This document shows, in pieces, positions 1,989-13,261 of a DNA stretch of 48,502 nt. Below the pieces are notes generated by a model. It was not told the origin of the DNA. It searched no databases and worked only from the letters and a program-made list of their open reading frames with translations. The DNA is from a virus. The position numbers were made by a program, and so were the translations under genes. The stretch lies in the IMG/VR virus record IMGVR_UViG_3300033145_003419, positions 1 through 48,502 of that record; one strand, written 5' to 3'. Positions within the stretch are counted from its first letter, which is position 1; each line of letters begins with the position of its first letter.

Positions 1989-2459
1989 TTACTCCGCATG
2001 TCCCTTTGGAAGTAGAAGGGGTAGAAGAATTGGGGGCAAACCCATACGGGCACTCATACTCTGGGTGAACTCGCGGAGATATGGCCATGAATGGATGCTC
2101 AAGTTTCTACTAGCGAACATCTCAAGAATCTCTGAATCTACTTCAATGGGACTGTGATAATAAAGTAGCAGAGAACCAGACAGGGTGAAGATCTCTTTCT
2201 CCGAGTCTTCCAACACTGCTTTCAGATCAATATGCTCATTGAACCTAAAGAGTTTTTTGTCATCGTCGTTAATTGCATACTCTGTTTTCTTTTCTACATT
2301 GATAGAAGAGGACCCAATCTCCAGGTCCGGATCCCTTGTTACTGATGCATCAATGAAGCGAACTGTTTTAAGCTCGATTTCTCTCATCATGGCCTGATAA
2401 CGAGCCTCAGCATCATTTTCCTCGCGTTGTTTTGATTCCTTATCGCTCATAGTATCCAT
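1989..2459 (-). CDS. SecB-like chaperone (TAC module)
   Basis: A 156-residue protein. Its C-terminal half matches the SecB pattern: a strand-rich core, then WPYLREFTQSMSARMGLPP and a hydrophobic end, equivalent to the conserved PYxRE..S..R.G.P segment of SecB. Stand-alone SecB copies next to toxin-antitoxin genes belong to toxin-antitoxin-chaperone (TAC) systems, such as mycobacterial Rv1955-1957. There the chaperone folds the antitoxin by binding a C-terminal chaperone-addiction tail. Nine bases separate it from the HicB-like gene upstream. Met4 (2450) is an alternative start with a better GGATGG site. The locus is visibly AT-richer than its neighbours, which suggests separate acquisition. 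The fold call is good; the TAC role is inferred from context. Confidence 0.8.
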   Translation of the reverse strand: MDTMSDKESKQREENDAEARYQAMMREIELKTVRFIDASVTRDPDLEIGSSSINVEKKTEYAINDDDKKLFRFNEHIDLKAVLEDSEKEIFTLSGSLLLYYHSPIEVDSEILEMFASRNLSIHSWPYLREFTQSMSARMGLPPILLPLLLPKGHAE

Positions 2460-2468
2460 CCAATACGG

Positions 2469-2990
2469 CTAAGCCGTGTCTGCGAGTTCTAGGTGTCCGG
2501 TTTTAATATTATCCGGTGGAACCGTCTGTGCCACTCCAGGGGTCTCTGTAGTTGTTACCCAAGACTCTATGATCCGGTTCGTCACCTTGAGTTTGTCATG
2601 GATCTTATCGACTAGCCTTTGAGTTCGCGTTGTGGCTCTGATGTGCCTGCTTTCAGTGATAAGCGTATTGAGGTACAGGTTGATGCTAGTGCCCTCCCAC
2701 TCCGCCTCTTCAGCTAGAGCGCGGTGCAAAGACTTCGGCATTCTCAGCAAGAATTGCCCTCCGTATTCACGCTCTTCTTGTGGAAGTGGGATTTCATACC
2801 CCTGATCAAGTGCAGTTTCCAGCCACAGACGCTTCGTCTCTGTTATGTCCTCAACGGCATCTTCGATTGTGCGTCCGTCGCCACGACACCCCGGTAATTC
2901 GGGTATCTCAATGAAGAAACCAAGTTCGGGATCTGGGGAAATCTTGTATGCGTATGGGAGCTCCATGTAATAATCAAGATTATTGATCAT
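2469..2990 (-). CDS. HicB-like antitoxin with long C-terminal tail
   Basis: The N-terminal HicB fold shows YYMELPYAYKI, then GFFIEIPELPGCRGDG and a helix. It is followed by IPLP and a ribbon-helix-helix or Arc-like segment, FLLRMPKSLHRALAEEA, as in long HicB antitoxins. Usual HicB proteins end shortly after that segment. This one continues for about 60 residues, as expected of a chaperone-addiction tail recognised by the adjoining SecB-like protein. The start is at 2990 or 2993: an AAGGAG site lies just upstream, inside the end of the preceding gene, so translation is coupled (overlap of 11-14 bases). It probably represses its own operon through the operator at 3304-3328. The HicB assignment is strong; the tail function is inferred. 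Confidence 0.85.
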   Translation of the reverse strand: MINNLDYYMELPYAYKISPDPELGFFIEIPELPGCRGDGRTIEDAVEDITETKRLWLETALDQGYEIPLPQEEREYGGQFLLRMPKSLHRALAEEAEWEGTSINLYLNTLITESRHIRATTRTQRLVDKIHDKLKVTNRIIESWVTTTETPGVAQTVPPDNIKTGHLELADTA

Positions 2991-3303
2991 CATCGTTCTC
3001 CTTTTCAGTAATGCGGCCAGCCCTACTAAGATCTCTAATAAAATCGCGAATATATCTCTTGTCGATAAACTTCTCTCCTCCATGGGGTTTTTCAAATTTC
3101 ACAAAAGATATCAAGGGATTCGATGGATCGACGTGTTTGATAACAATCTTTATCTTATCCTCTTTTCCTATACTGTAACCAAGCTCGTCTTCGTGCCGCT
3201 CAATGAAGTCCTTAACTTCCCTATAACGGAAGTTCTTACACTCACCCAGAAGAGCCTTCTGGATAAATGGATCGTTAATATCCACTAGCATCCACCAGGG
3301 CAT
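2980..3303 (-). CDS. Putative toxin of the TAC module (HicA-like fold possible)
   Basis: First gene of a three-gene operon (this gene, HicB-like antitoxin, SecB-like chaperone). It encodes about 107 residues. I do not recognise it as a classical HicA, which is about 60 residues. Its second half does follow the helix, three strands, helix order of HicA: YREVKDFIERHE, then IKIVIKHV, ISFVKFE, and a closing helix FIRDLSRAGRI. Candidate catalytic histidines lie in KHVD and PHGG. The upstream promoter sits so close that the first ATG may not be transcribed. In that case the ATG at 3291, behind GGTGG, is the start. The role as toxin rests on gene order, overlap with the antitoxin and size. It could also be an accessory protein. 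Confidence 0.7.
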   Translation of the reverse strand: MPWWMLVDINDPFIQKALLGECKNFRYREVKDFIERHEDELGYSIGKEDKIKIVIKHVDPSNPLISFVKFEKPHGGEKFIDKRYIRDFIRDLSRAGRITEKENDDDQ

Positions 3304-3335
3304 GTGATATTATATACAATATTATCACTTGTCAA
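3304..3335 (-). promoter_or_regulatory. TAC promoter with overlapping palindromic operator
   Basis: Read on the minus strand, a perfect TTGACA box (3330-3335) is followed by TATAAT (spacer 15) or the overlapping TAATAT (spacer 17). The -10 region overlaps an imperfect inverted repeat of two 10-base arms (3304-3328, one mismatch, GTGATA ends). This is the usual design for antitoxin autoregulation. Only a few bases separate the -10 from the first ATG of the operon, so the transcript is leaderless or starts inside the annotated frame. Confidence 0.72.
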
Positions 3336-4115: not shown

Positions 4116-6207
<2,092 letters not shown>

Positions 6208-8432: not shown

Positions 8433-9077
8433 CTACCGTGTCCCGCCAGCGGCACGCAGCATTCTGATAACCGCTGCATCGTCCTCTTCTTCTCCCCATT
8501 CAGCCACCCATTCCTCTATCACCGCCAAAGAGGTCTCACCGTCTTCGTTCCTGGCGTTTACATCGGCGCCGTTATCCAATAGGAACTTAACCATATTGAC
8601 CTCTGCCTCCAGTGCTGCACTATGCAACGGTGTGCCTCCATCCATGCCAAGTGCATTGATATCAGCTCCAGGAGCAGAGAGTAGCATCTCAAATAGTTCT
8701 ATGTCGTCAACTTCGACGGCTCTGTGCAGGGGGGTCACTCCATTATCATTTCTGGCATTGACGTCGGCTCCCTTACGTATAAGCATCATAGCAATATTCT
8801 TACAGTCCGCTTTTTGCTTAACTTCGTCGCTTTCGCCATGAGGCGTTCCACGTTTAGATAGGAAAAAACCATAGCCAATCAGAGCATTGATTAGAGGGGT
8901 GTTCCCGCCTGAATCTTTTTTGTCAACGGCTTCACCTCTATCCAAAAGCTTTATCACAGTGACCATGTCACCGCTCTCGGCGGCTTCATGTATGTCAGCC
9001 TTACTCCCGCAACCAATTACAAACACAGGCGGGATCGCTAACAGAGCTATAAGTAGGATTACTGATGCTTTCCCCAT
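8433..9077 (-). CDS. Ankyrin-repeat lipoprotein
   Basis: 214 residues. A lipoprotein signal ends in the lipobox VIGC (Cys23). The rest is four to five ankyrin repeats, recognisable from IHEAAESGDMVTVIKLLDRG, NTPLINAL, GADVNARNDNGVTPLHRAV, GGTPLHSAALEAEVNMVKFL and GADVNARNEDGETSL. Ankyrin arrays bind proteins. Here they would sit outside the membrane as a surface-anchored binding module. A long insert between repeats one and two is unusual. A GGGGAAG site precedes ATG 9077. An ankyrin lipoprotein is a plausible lysogenic-conversion gene. Confidence 0.86.
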   Translation of the reverse strand: MGKASVILLIALLAIPPVFVIGCGSKADIHEAAESGDMVTVIKLLDRGEAVDKKDSGGNTPLINALIGYGFFLSKRGTPHGESDEVKQKADCKNIAMMLIRKGADVNARNDNGVTPLHRAVEVDDIELFEMLLSAPGADINALGMDGGTPLHSAALEAEVNMVKFLLDNGADVNARNEDGETSLAVIEEWVAEWGEEEDDAAVIRMLRAAGGTR

Positions 9078-10051: not shown

Positions 10052-10969
10052 TCAGCTCTCCGGCATATCACCTTTCATCTCAAAGAGCAGTTCCTGTACC
10101 GCTTCGATGGCTATCAGGGTTCCGGCCAGTGCTCCCTTCAGGTCACTTGAAAACGAATGAGCATGAGACTTGACCTCCGCAAAGATCTTCTTGAGCTCCT
10201 CCTCAACCCGCTTGTGTTTGGTTATGTCCCATGCCGCTATAACCTCTGCTGGCCGTCCCTGGTATTGGGTGGCGCTGCTGTGTATCAAGGCTGTTAGAGT
10301 TGACCTGTCCCTTCTTACCAACGTCGCCTCTTGCAGATTCTTGCCCCCTGACTCGATATGAGCGCGCGCGATGTTGTGGTCCCCGGAGTCAATGAACTGG
10401 AAGCCGTCCATGCCGACAAGCTCGTCTGGATCGTAGCCCAACACCTCTCCTGCTCTCTTGTTGGCAAGGAGGATCTTTCCGTCCTCGTGGAATATGACCC
10501 CTTCCCGAGATACCTCCGATATAGCTTGGCACTTTGCTACCATGTCTCTCAGCCTGTCCTTCGCTCGCTTGAGAGCGATCTCGGATAACGCGTGTTTAAC
10601 TGCATCGGGAAGCAGGGTAGTGAGGCGCTTGTCCTTCACAACGTACCCAGAAGCGCCGAGCCTGATTGCGCTCGCCGCGATCTGCTCGTCGCCTTGCCCC
10701 GTGACCATAACCACTCGAGGCGGGTTCTCTATGGCCTTTATCTCTTCCAGCAGCTCCAGGCCGTCGCCGTCGGGCAATCGGTAGTCCAGGGTGATGACCT
10801 TATAGGTTTCCGAGGCTAGCGTCTCCCGAGCGGAAGCGCAGTCCTCTGCGATTGTTACCTGGGCGTCAAACGTGCGGTTAAGGACTCGCTTGAGTAACAC
10901 TGCCATGTCGGGCTCGTCCTCGACAATGAGCATCCGTGGGCGGCGTTCCGATTCTTTCCCGTCAATCAT
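10052..10969 (-). CDS. Response regulator with REC and PAS domains
   Basis: 305 residues. The receiver domain has the acidic cluster VEDEPD, phospho-acceptor Asp62 (in TLDYRLPDGDG), Thr90 (VMVTG) and Lys112 (VVKDK). A PAS domain follows from about 150 (ISEVSREGVIFHEDGKILLA and a C-terminal AAWDITKHKRVEEEL). It ends in a helix without a DNA-binding or kinase domain, so signalling must go through protein contact. Such a regulator directly downstream of the phage repressor is unusual. It could tie prophage state to a host two-component signal. A good ribosome site AGGAGGACCC precedes ATG 10969. Confidence 0.9.
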   Translation of the reverse strand: MIDGKESERRPRMLIVEDEPDMAVLLKRVLNRTFDAQVTIAEDCASARETLASETYKVITLDYRLPDGDGLELLEEIKAIENPPRVVMVTGQGDEQIAASAIRLGASGYVVKDKRLTTLLPDAVKHALSEIALKRAKDRLRDMVAKCQAISEVSREGVIFHEDGKILLANKRAGEVLGYDPDELVGMDGFQFIDSGDHNIARAHIESGGKNLQEATLVRRDRSTLTALIHSSATQYQGRPAEVIAAWDITKHKRVEEELKKIFAEVKSHAHSFSSDLKGALAGTLIAIEAVQELLFEMKGDMPES

Positions 10970-11077: not shown

Positions 11078-11458
11078 TCAACCGTATTTTTTATCCCGTT
11101 CTGCCTTCCGTAACTCCTTCTCCTTGCTCTCCACGATCCGCATGATGACCTCTATCTCCGCAGGCGAGAGGTCCGGGTTGGCGGTGAGCACGACGCGTAT
11201 GTCGTCGGCATTGGTCTTGTATTTCTCGATGGTTTCCCGGATGTACTTGGCGTCGAAGTCCTGGAAAAGGTCTTCATACTTGATGTCGAGAACCTGAAGC
11301 ACCTTCTTGAGCTTCTCCGGTCGCGGTTGATGTTTGCCACTCTCCCATTGGGATATTGTAGAACCCGGCACCCCAGATAGTCTGCCCAGTTCATTAACTC
11401 CCAGGCCCCGAAATTCACGTACCTTCTTTAAGCGGCCTCCGACATCGCTGATGTCCAT
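11078..11458 (-). CDS. XRE/CI-type prophage repressor
   Basis: 126 residues. The N-terminal helix-turn-helix covers about 7-62: RLKKVREFRGLGVNELGRLSG, then PGSTISQWESGKHQPRPEKL. The C-terminal part is a helical, charged oligomerisation region without the LexA-type self-cleavage domain. Release would therefore come from an external factor such as the ImmA/IrrE-like protease at 1444-1911. It faces a divergent Cro-like gene across a 150-base operator region. This is the standard arrangement of a lysogeny switch. Confidence 0.9.
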   Translation of the reverse strand: MDISDVGGRLKKVREFRGLGVNELGRLSGVPGSTISQWESGKHQPRPEKLKKVLQVLDIKYEDLFQDFDAKYIRETIEKYKTNADDIRVVLTANPDLSPAEIEVIMRIVESKEKELRKAERDKKYG

Positions 11459-11610
11459 CCTTCAATTGTAGCGGTGTTTTGCTGCCTCTATGTGATATCT
11501 CTGAATATTTTTAGAAAAAGTTTGTAAAATGCTTTACAACTCTGAACGTTATGTGCTACCGTTCAAATACGCTCCGAGTTACCTAACGTATTTTAACGAT
11601 GGAGGCAAGC
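11459..11610. promoter_or_regulatory. Divergent operator/promoter region of the lysogeny switch
   Basis: An AT-rich intergenic region between the leftward repressor and the rightward Cro-like gene. It contains a perfect 7-base inverted repeat with a four-base centre (TTGTAAA/TTTACAA, 11522-11539). A 6-base inverted repeat with an 11-base centre (TGAACG/CGTTCA, 11543-11565) follows. Both are probable repressor or Cro sites. Hexamers resembling -35 and -10 boxes are present on both strands, but I cannot choose a unique pair. Confidence 0.72.
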
Positions 11611-11838
11611 GTGAGAGCCAACAACATACTCTCGGTCCTAATGAAGAACCGTAGCATCAGCGGTGGGCAACTGGCAGAGAGCACCGGCCTCAACAACTCA
11701 GTCATCAGCCAGATCAAGAACGGGATTCGCCTGCCCTCCGACGAGGAGCTCGAGAAGATCTGTATCGCCCTGGGCGTGACCCCGGAGCAGATATACCCGG
11801 ACGACCAGCTACGTGAAGCACTCCAGGAGGCAAGGTGA
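11611..11838 (+). CDS. Cro-like HTH regulator
   Basis: 75 residues, nearly all one helix-turn-helix domain: RANNILSVLMKNRSISGGQLAE, then LNNSVISQIKNGIRLPSDEEL and a closing helix ending in DDQLREALQEAR. GTG 11611 is preferred over the ATG at 11599 because GGAGG lies five bases upstream of the GTG. First gene of the rightward early operon, opposite the repressor. It overlaps the next small gene by a GTGA junction. Its role as Cro is inferred from size and place. Confidence 0.85.
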   Translation: MRANNILSVLMKNRSISGGQLAESTGLNNSVISQIKNGIRLPSDEELEKICIALGVTPEQIYPDDQLREALQEAR

Positions 11839-12268: not shown

Positions 12269-13261
12269 ATGGCACCACTACCGCAGGGAATCAAAGGACT
12301 CACGGACACTATCAGGATCCCCAGGGCGGGCAGGATCCGTCTCGGCGAGAAGGACGTCTCCCAGAAGACTGGCCGGGAATATCCGCGAGCGCTGGATCAC
12401 TTCAACTTCGTCGATGCCCCGTTGGCCGGTGAGTACTACGGGGACAACTGCCGGGAACTGGACATCATGTTCCCCGTAAACGACCCCTCCGCGATCCTGG
12501 ACTTGGCTTATATCCGCTGGGGCACAGGGGGCTGGAAGTGCCGGGGCGACGGGGAAGTAGCGGTTCACCGCGAGGTAGACCACGAGATCGAGTGCCTGGG
12601 CGAGGATTGTCAGGCTTTTATAGAAGGGGACTGCAAGCGCCAGGGCAGGGTGGAGTTTATCCTCTACAAGGTCCCCGGCGGCCTCTCCGTCTACGACATC
12701 AGCACCACCGGAAAGAGAAGCATCCAGAACTTGGTGGCCGGGCTGGAGATGGTGCAGGGCCTCTTTGGCAGGATCCACGGAATCCCGCTCAAGCTGTTCT
12801 TGGACCCTTACCAGGTTAGTTACGTCGACGACAACGGCAAGCAACACAAATCCAACCACTACTGCCTACGCCTGGACACGGCTCAGAGCCTTACCGAGGT
12901 AACGCCGCTGGCCCTGGGCGGGGCGAAGCTCGAGTTGCCGTCGGCACCGGAAGAGCTGCCTGACGACCTGTGGCCCAAGAGTGTTCAGGAGGAAAAGGAG
13001 CTGCCAGAGGCCCCGGTGGCCGCTGCCCCCCCGATCGACCCCGATATCCTTACAGGCTTTGAGATCCTGGGGACTCCCGAAAAAGAGCGCACGCGGCTGC
13101 TCCAGAAATACGAGGGCTACCCCGACAAGCTCAAGCAGTACCTGAGCGCCCGAGTCGACGCCGAGATCGACCCGGAATCAAATCAGGAATCAAATCAGGA
13201 ATCAAACGTCACCGAGCTTCCCCAACCGGCCCCTAAGAGTGAAAGGAAGGCGTACTTCTAA
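12269..13261 (+). CDS. Recombination directionality factor, phiC31 gp3-like
   Basis: 330 residues. The N-terminus IRIPRAGRIRLGEK...GREYPRALDHF, the YGD...LDIMFPV segment and the cysteine cluster CRGDG...CLGEDC...GDCKRQG resemble the gp3-like family, whose founder switches the phiC31 serine integrase from integration to excision. That fits the serine integrase at 1-1410. The C-terminal 100 residues are acidic and Pro-rich and end in a triplicated ESNQ motif. The 3' end overlaps the nuclease start by one base. The family assignment is by pattern memory, not a search. If correct, this protein controls excision. Confidence 0.8.
   Translation: MAPLPQGIKGLTDTIRIPRAGRIRLGEKDVSQKTGREYPRALDHFNFVDAPLAGEYYGDNCRELDIMFPVNDPSAILDLAYIRWGTGGWKCRGDGEVAVHREVDHEIECLGEDCQAFIEGDCKRQGRVEFILYKVPGGLSVYDISTTGKRSIQNLVAGLEMVQGLFGRIHGIPLKLFLDPYQVSYVDDNGKQHKSNHYCLRLDTAQSLTEVTPLALGGAKLELPSAPEELPDDLWPKSVQEEKELPEAPVAAAPPIDPDILTGFEILGTPEKERTRLLQKYEGYPDKLKQYLSARVDAEIDPESNQESNQESNVTELPQPAPKSERKAYF
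13174..13206. repeat. Three GGAATCA motifs at 12-bp spacing
   Basis: GGAATCA begins at 13174, 13186 and 13198, a 12-bp period, in the 3' part of the gp3-like gene, where it encodes ESNQ repeats. The same heptamer in the same 12-bp phase recurs at 21137-21172 in an unrelated gene. Confidence 0.85.

Follow-up and report, generated by a model that had tools for sequence, protein, structure and literature searches.

A likely HicAB-type toxin-antitoxin-chaperone operon near the lysogeny genes of a temperate phage, with a HicA-like toxin lacking Gly-x-His

Three consecutive genes in a virus record (IMG/VR IMGVR_UViG_3300033145_003419) raise the question of whether they form a toxin-antitoxin-chaperone (TAC) unit and, if so, what kind of toxin the first of them encodes. 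We analyzed the whole stretch of DNA, 48,502 nucleotides long and referred to here as the window, in which terminase and portal genes are present. The three genes were found where a preliminary description had placed them, tightly packed on the minus strand from 3303 down to 1989 (Table 1). The first lies directly upstream of hicB and overlaps it by 14 nt, and a 9-nt gap follows between hicB and the SecB-like gene, a spacing that suggests cotranscription as one operon. The whole unit is, in our judgment, likely to be a HicAB-type TAC operon, located in a temperate-phage lysogeny region.

Table 1. Positions of the features of the putative TAC operon within the window
Feature	Positions	Strand	Basis
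HicA-like toxin gene	2980..3303	-	ORF, of 107 aa if read from the first ATG and of 103 aa if read from the second (3291)
hicB, antitoxin of 174 aa	2469..2993	-	ORF; HicB-like N-terminal domain and ribbon-helix-helix; Pfam, identity to Thermus HicB
C-terminal tail of HicB (residues 117-174, including Trp145), a putative chaperone-addiction (ChAD) region	2472..2645	-	Comparison of 12 HicB tails
SecB-like chaperone gene, 156 aa	1989..2459	-	phmmer, tblastn, PADLOC and PHROG matches
Sigma-70-type promoter TTGACA-17-TAATAT	3307..3335	-	Sequence
Operator-like inverted repeat CAAGTGATAATAT-TGTAT-ATAATATCACATG	3301..3331	-	Overlaps the promoter and the first ATG
Shine-Dalgarno AAGGAG of hicB, within the toxin gene	2998..3003	-	Sequence

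The promoter does overlap a palindrome, as had been described, and this inverted repeat was unique of its class (13-nt arms with at least 11 positions paired, gap of 3 to 7 nt) in the full 48.5-kb window. Sites of the form TGATA-N(8-14)-TATCA occurred twice in the window, versus 0.15 expected, and the promoter type combining TTGACA with TGATA...TATCA was common to the window and several of the related operons presented below. When the operator-like sites of the window (TTTGACAAGTGATAATATTGTATATAATATCACATG), of loci L163 (TTGACAAATATGATATCACATATGATATCATT) and L169 (TTGACAAAAGTGATATCATCTATAATATCATT), and of Thermus (TTTTGACAAAGTGATATCGCATGTGATAGCG) were compared by eye, not blind and with the sites chosen by position, the outer half-sites matched, that of the window being 3 bp longer (23 versus 20 bp). 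A site of this type was not seen in the related operon of the IMG/VR contig L174. As for the start of the toxin gene, the ORF of 107 residues described previously is present, but if the -10 box is read as TATAAT, the first ATG sits only 5 nt past it. Because of this proximity, the second ATG is the more likely start, giving a protein of 103 aa and a leader resembling in length those of the relatives.

The second gene product matched two HicB families above their curated cutoffs in Pfam (PF05534, 1.4e-9, 38.2 bits with a cutoff of 21; PF15919, 6.9e-9, 36.4 bits with a cutoff of 27) and shared 49 to 50% of its residues with Thermus HicB across 118 aa. TAC systems have been described with three families of antitoxin, HicB being the rarest (PMC5105189). 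The reported C-terminal extension of about 60 residues is real, 58 residues being counted beyond the ribbon-helix-helix domain, while near two-gene HicBs, of ca. 131 aa in all, have no such tail. When tail lengths and Trp positions were compared in 12 HicBs, 10 of the tails contained Trp. In Mycobacterium tuberculosis, the ChAD tail of the antitoxin is held through W108, R110, and Y114 (PMC6377645). The window tail has Trp145 without the Arg and Tyr of that ChAD, with which we found no clear sequence match except the Trp, and it ends in ADTA, not LAA. From these comparisons, we consider the tail a putative ChAD region.

The third gene product had no Pfam match. Its description as a SecB-like chaperone was upheld by matches of the protein segment SWPYLREFTQSMSARMGLPPILLPLL to the M. 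tuberculosis chaperone Rv1957 (5mtw_C; phmmer E value of 0.049), Thermus (tblastn, 2e-3), the chaperone encoded by an MqsA-SecB operon of Escherichia phage PhiR70_1 (tblastn, 6e-4), PADLOC PD-T4-9_C (CmdC; 3e-4), and PHROG 20189 (2e-10), and it reached 2.4e-9 within a small ORF set assembled for the analysis. The residues of the M. tuberculosis chaperone that contact ChAD include L154-P155-P156-L157 (PMC6377645). In the phmmer alignment, these were paired with L141-P142-P143-I144 of the window protein, a numbering that assumes a 3-residue tag on the PDB chain, inferred from chain length.

Related operons were collected from genome collections with a SecB profile or, for L169 and L170, with a toxin profile, the phylum names being taken from the titles of the loci used as centers. 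HicA-HicB(tail)-SecB operons appeared in Chloroflexota (L154, at the same place as L125, and L155, L157, and L158) and in the phylum to which a record titled Acidobacteria belongs (L161, L162, L163, L169, and L170). In four of the latter (L162, L163, L169, and L170), long HicA-like proteins of 104 to 113 aa occupied the position of the window toxin, and L160 was a damaged TAC case. In contig L174, genes for a 97-aa HicA-like protein, HicB, and a SecB-like protein lie between apparent terminase and portal genes; thus, the window is not the only phage sequence with a HicAB TAC. A search of 244 genomes from the phylum of a cyanobacterial locus, made without a positive control, gave no SecB-like TAC. 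All these HicAB TACs, L174 included, resembled the window in gene order, HicB tails, and chaperone, and several also in operator type. The TAC reading of the preliminary description is therefore well supported by the similar operons in several phyla and their operator type, by the Trp-bearing tail, and by an LPP motif in the SecB-like protein that aligns with part of the M. tuberculosis tail-binding site.

Other arrangements with SecB-like proteins were also observed. On plasmid pVV8 of Thermus thermophilus HB8 (L003, 2842-3399), a SecB-like domain is fused behind an N-terminal helix-turn-helix; this fusion adjoins a HicA-HicB pair with a helix-turn-helix protein and precedes a Swt1-type HEPN gene, and HicAB and the helix-turn-helix protein both carry Trp-rich tails at their C termini (SWEW... 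and SWASWAA). Three-gene units at L175 (7204-8941), L177 (7248-9073), and L178 (6922-8782) encode a protein of ca. 200 aa, ending in SYAA in two of the three, then a SecB-like protein and a protein of 230 to 260 aa, and may represent TACs of a class in which the toxin gene comes last. The first protein of L175 contains FIPGSTLKGMLRSYL, reminiscent of CRISPR RAMP proteins, and no CRISPR genes were recognized nearby by eye. Finally, L140, L141, L146, and L147 hold CmdTAC-like operons made of an ADP-ribosyltransferase-like protein, a short antitoxin, and a SecB-like protein (in L140, PD-T4-9_A at 1e-6 and PD-T4-9_C at 3e-36).

The toxin had been described as unfamiliar, and by several measures it is. 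We found neither a family match (Pfam, including HicA PF07927; PADLOC, including PD-T4-9_A, the ADP-ribosyltransferase toxin of CmdTAC; and PHROG) nor a solved relative structure. No close relatives turned up in the phage and plasmid collections, and peptide-pattern searches of contigs from IMG/VR and GTDB yielded none either. Candidates in 61 genomes from the phylum of a Meiothermus locus were rejected because the matches were chance ORFs. Nevertheless, the gene occupies the HicA position, and several of the HicA-like proteins of the related TACs likewise score under the PF07927 cutoff. Against a template combining the HicA-like proteins of the TACs and of Thermus with those in alignment A10, hhalign gave E values of 4e-5 in global mode and 8e-5 in local mode, over 81 columns. 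The score of 28.0 was matched by no shuffle out of 300 and by no natural 103-aa fragment out of 500, the best of the fragments reaching 20.1. With hmmsearch, HicA profiles gave only 2 to 6 bits, scores that were reached by 3.7% (63 of 1,706), 0.4 to 0.8%, or 1.5 to 3.7% of shuffles, depending on the profile. Several profiles were tried, and all are reported here; hhalign was given more weight because its natural-fragment control is stricter and the match is collinear along the whole protein. A BLAST comparison with the L162 protein alone gave an E value of 0.001.

Structure prediction, proposed as a way of comparing this protein with HicA, gave a divided answer. The single-sequence AlphaFold model was useless (pLDDT of 45.7), while the one built from a nine-row alignment (pLDDT of 77.9) had the order helix-strand-strand-strand-helix expected of the dsRBD-like HicA fold, although eight of those rows were HicA-like and the model is not independent of them. 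When this model was searched with Foldseek, no HicA appeared among the best 50 matches and none had an E value of <0.001, the best PDB matches being at 0.1. On balance, the first gene product is probably HicA derived and strongly diverged. We call it HicA-like rather than HicA: the methods disagree, and the Gly and His that HicA needs are both Lys in the alignments of the window protein.

This substitution, not mentioned in the preliminary description, removes the Gly-x-His of the beta1-beta2 turn, which HicA toxins require for their RNA-cleaving activity (PMC12297915, PMC7180214); from residue 36 to residue 57, the window toxin lacks His altogether. A frameshift hiding Gly-Ser-His was considered and rejected, since inspection by eye of both alternative frames there revealed none. 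In the HicAB TACs found here, the toxins keep Gly-x-His or at least the His, while the window toxin has neither. Departures from the motif were also seen in L174 (97 aa; HKH for GSH) and L161 (85 aa; GDH).

It is possible, though doubtful, that the operon is a decayed TAC of the same anatomy, its toxin harmless after the loss of the catalytic residues and HicB and the chaperone kept as a regulator or as an immunity device that could neutralize a related HicA encoded by the host or by a different phage. The missing motif, the weak profile matches of the toxin, and the departures in L174 and L161 all fit such decay; against it, both of these relatives still keep the His, the window reading frame is intact and overlaps hicB, the promoter and operator-like repeat are intact as well, and the toxin retains regions that correspond to the two HicA helices and to the YIR motif. 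Alternatively, a HicA descendant without the canonical catalytic motif may still be a working toxin, acting through other chemistry or only by binding RNA, and be retained by the phage as a superinfection defense under the control of a SecB-like sensor, a proposal that we consider unlikely as it stands.

Replacement of HicA by an unrelated toxin in a HicB-SecB operon seems quite improbable. TAC toxins do vary, CmdT being an ADP-ribosyltransferase (PMC11618068), and the missing family and structural relatives, the weak hmmsearch scores, and the lack of HicA among the best Foldseek matches would agree with it, but the full-length hhalign match with its shuffle and fragment controls, the predicted order of elements (from the nonindependent model), and the HicA-like proteins carried at that position by the HicB-SecB relatives examined argue against it. 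That an ordinary two-gene HicAB merely sits beside an unconnected SecB-like gene, its tail being incidental, is very improbable indeed: beyond the Trp, the tail lacks clear resemblance to the M. tuberculosis ChAD, but only 9 nt separate the two genes, the HicB(tail)-SecB pairing recurs in several phyla and two phages, near two-gene HicBs are tailless, and most tails contain Trp.

If the unit is a HicAB-type TAC with an active toxin, the N-terminal domain of HicB would bind the HicA-like protein, and its ribbon-helix-helix would bind the inverted repeat over the promoter and repress the operon. Because of its 58-residue tail, HicB would fail to fold or to persist without the SecB-like protein bound to that tail around Trp145. 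By analogy with CmdTAC, stress or the proteins of a second phage could draw the chaperone away, so that HicB would be lost and the toxin freed. The unit might then act as a prophage stabilizer or as a superinfection defense.

The phage surroundings include a large serine integrase gene (1-1410), a recombination-directionality-factor-like gene (12269-13261), and two divergent ORFs for Cro/CI-sized helix-turn-helix proteins (11078-11458 and 11599-11838), recognized by eye. Between the integrase and the TAC lies an IrrE/M78 (ImmA/CapP-like) metallopeptidase gene (1444-1911; PF06114, 1.4e-17; PADLOC capP, 1.3e-21). It immediately follows the TAC, encoded on the same strand, and HicB is the nearest DNA-binding regulator; a functional link between HicB and the protease is thinkable, but the metallopeptidase gene was not seen in the related operons examined. 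The G+C content of the TAC region was 0.47, compared with 0.61 in the adjacent 2 kb, which is consistent with acquired cargo and is no proof of it. Recombinase and methylase relatives were scattered; a large DNA methyltransferase (4116-5801) is ca. 42 to 45% identical to methylases of Streptomyces and Marinitoga phages. An ankyrin-repeat protein (8433-9077; Ank, 1.6e-23) and a protein with response-regulator receiver and PAS domains (10052-10969) are also encoded.

With the window and the collected relatives, HicAB-type TACs are seen in several phyla and in no fewer than two phage contigs, and their natural set of HicB tails provides material to define chaperone addiction outside HigA. The window toxin itself is a test case for whether HicA-like toxicity is possible without the catalytic histidine.

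Among known systems, the HicAB-type TAC of Methylomonas methanica MC09 (Mmet-TAC; PMC5105189) shares with the window a HicA-type toxin, a C-terminally extended HicB, and a SecB-like chaperone, a comparison drawn from the published description. That unit is bacterial, and its chaperone dependence has been demonstrated experimentally (PMC5105189), whereas the one described here is phage borne. The HigB1-HigA1-Rv1957 system of M. tuberculosis has the same toxin-antitoxin-chaperone order, a Trp in the antitoxin tail, and LPP in the chaperone, but its toxin and antitoxin belong to the HigBA families, and its ChAD also uses Arg and Tyr. CmdTAC/PD-T4-9 is likewise a three-gene TAC, with a chaperone, CmdC, related to that of the window, and with a proven role in defense (PMC11618068): the T4 capsid protein diverts the chaperone, the antitoxin is degraded, and the toxin is freed (PMC11618068). 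It differs in its ADP-ribosyltransferase toxin and in an antitoxin predicted as two helices and an unstructured tail ending in LAA. HicAB-type TACs are thus a kind already known from Methylomonas, and what is unusual here, judging from the predicted protein, is a toxin without Gly-x-His.
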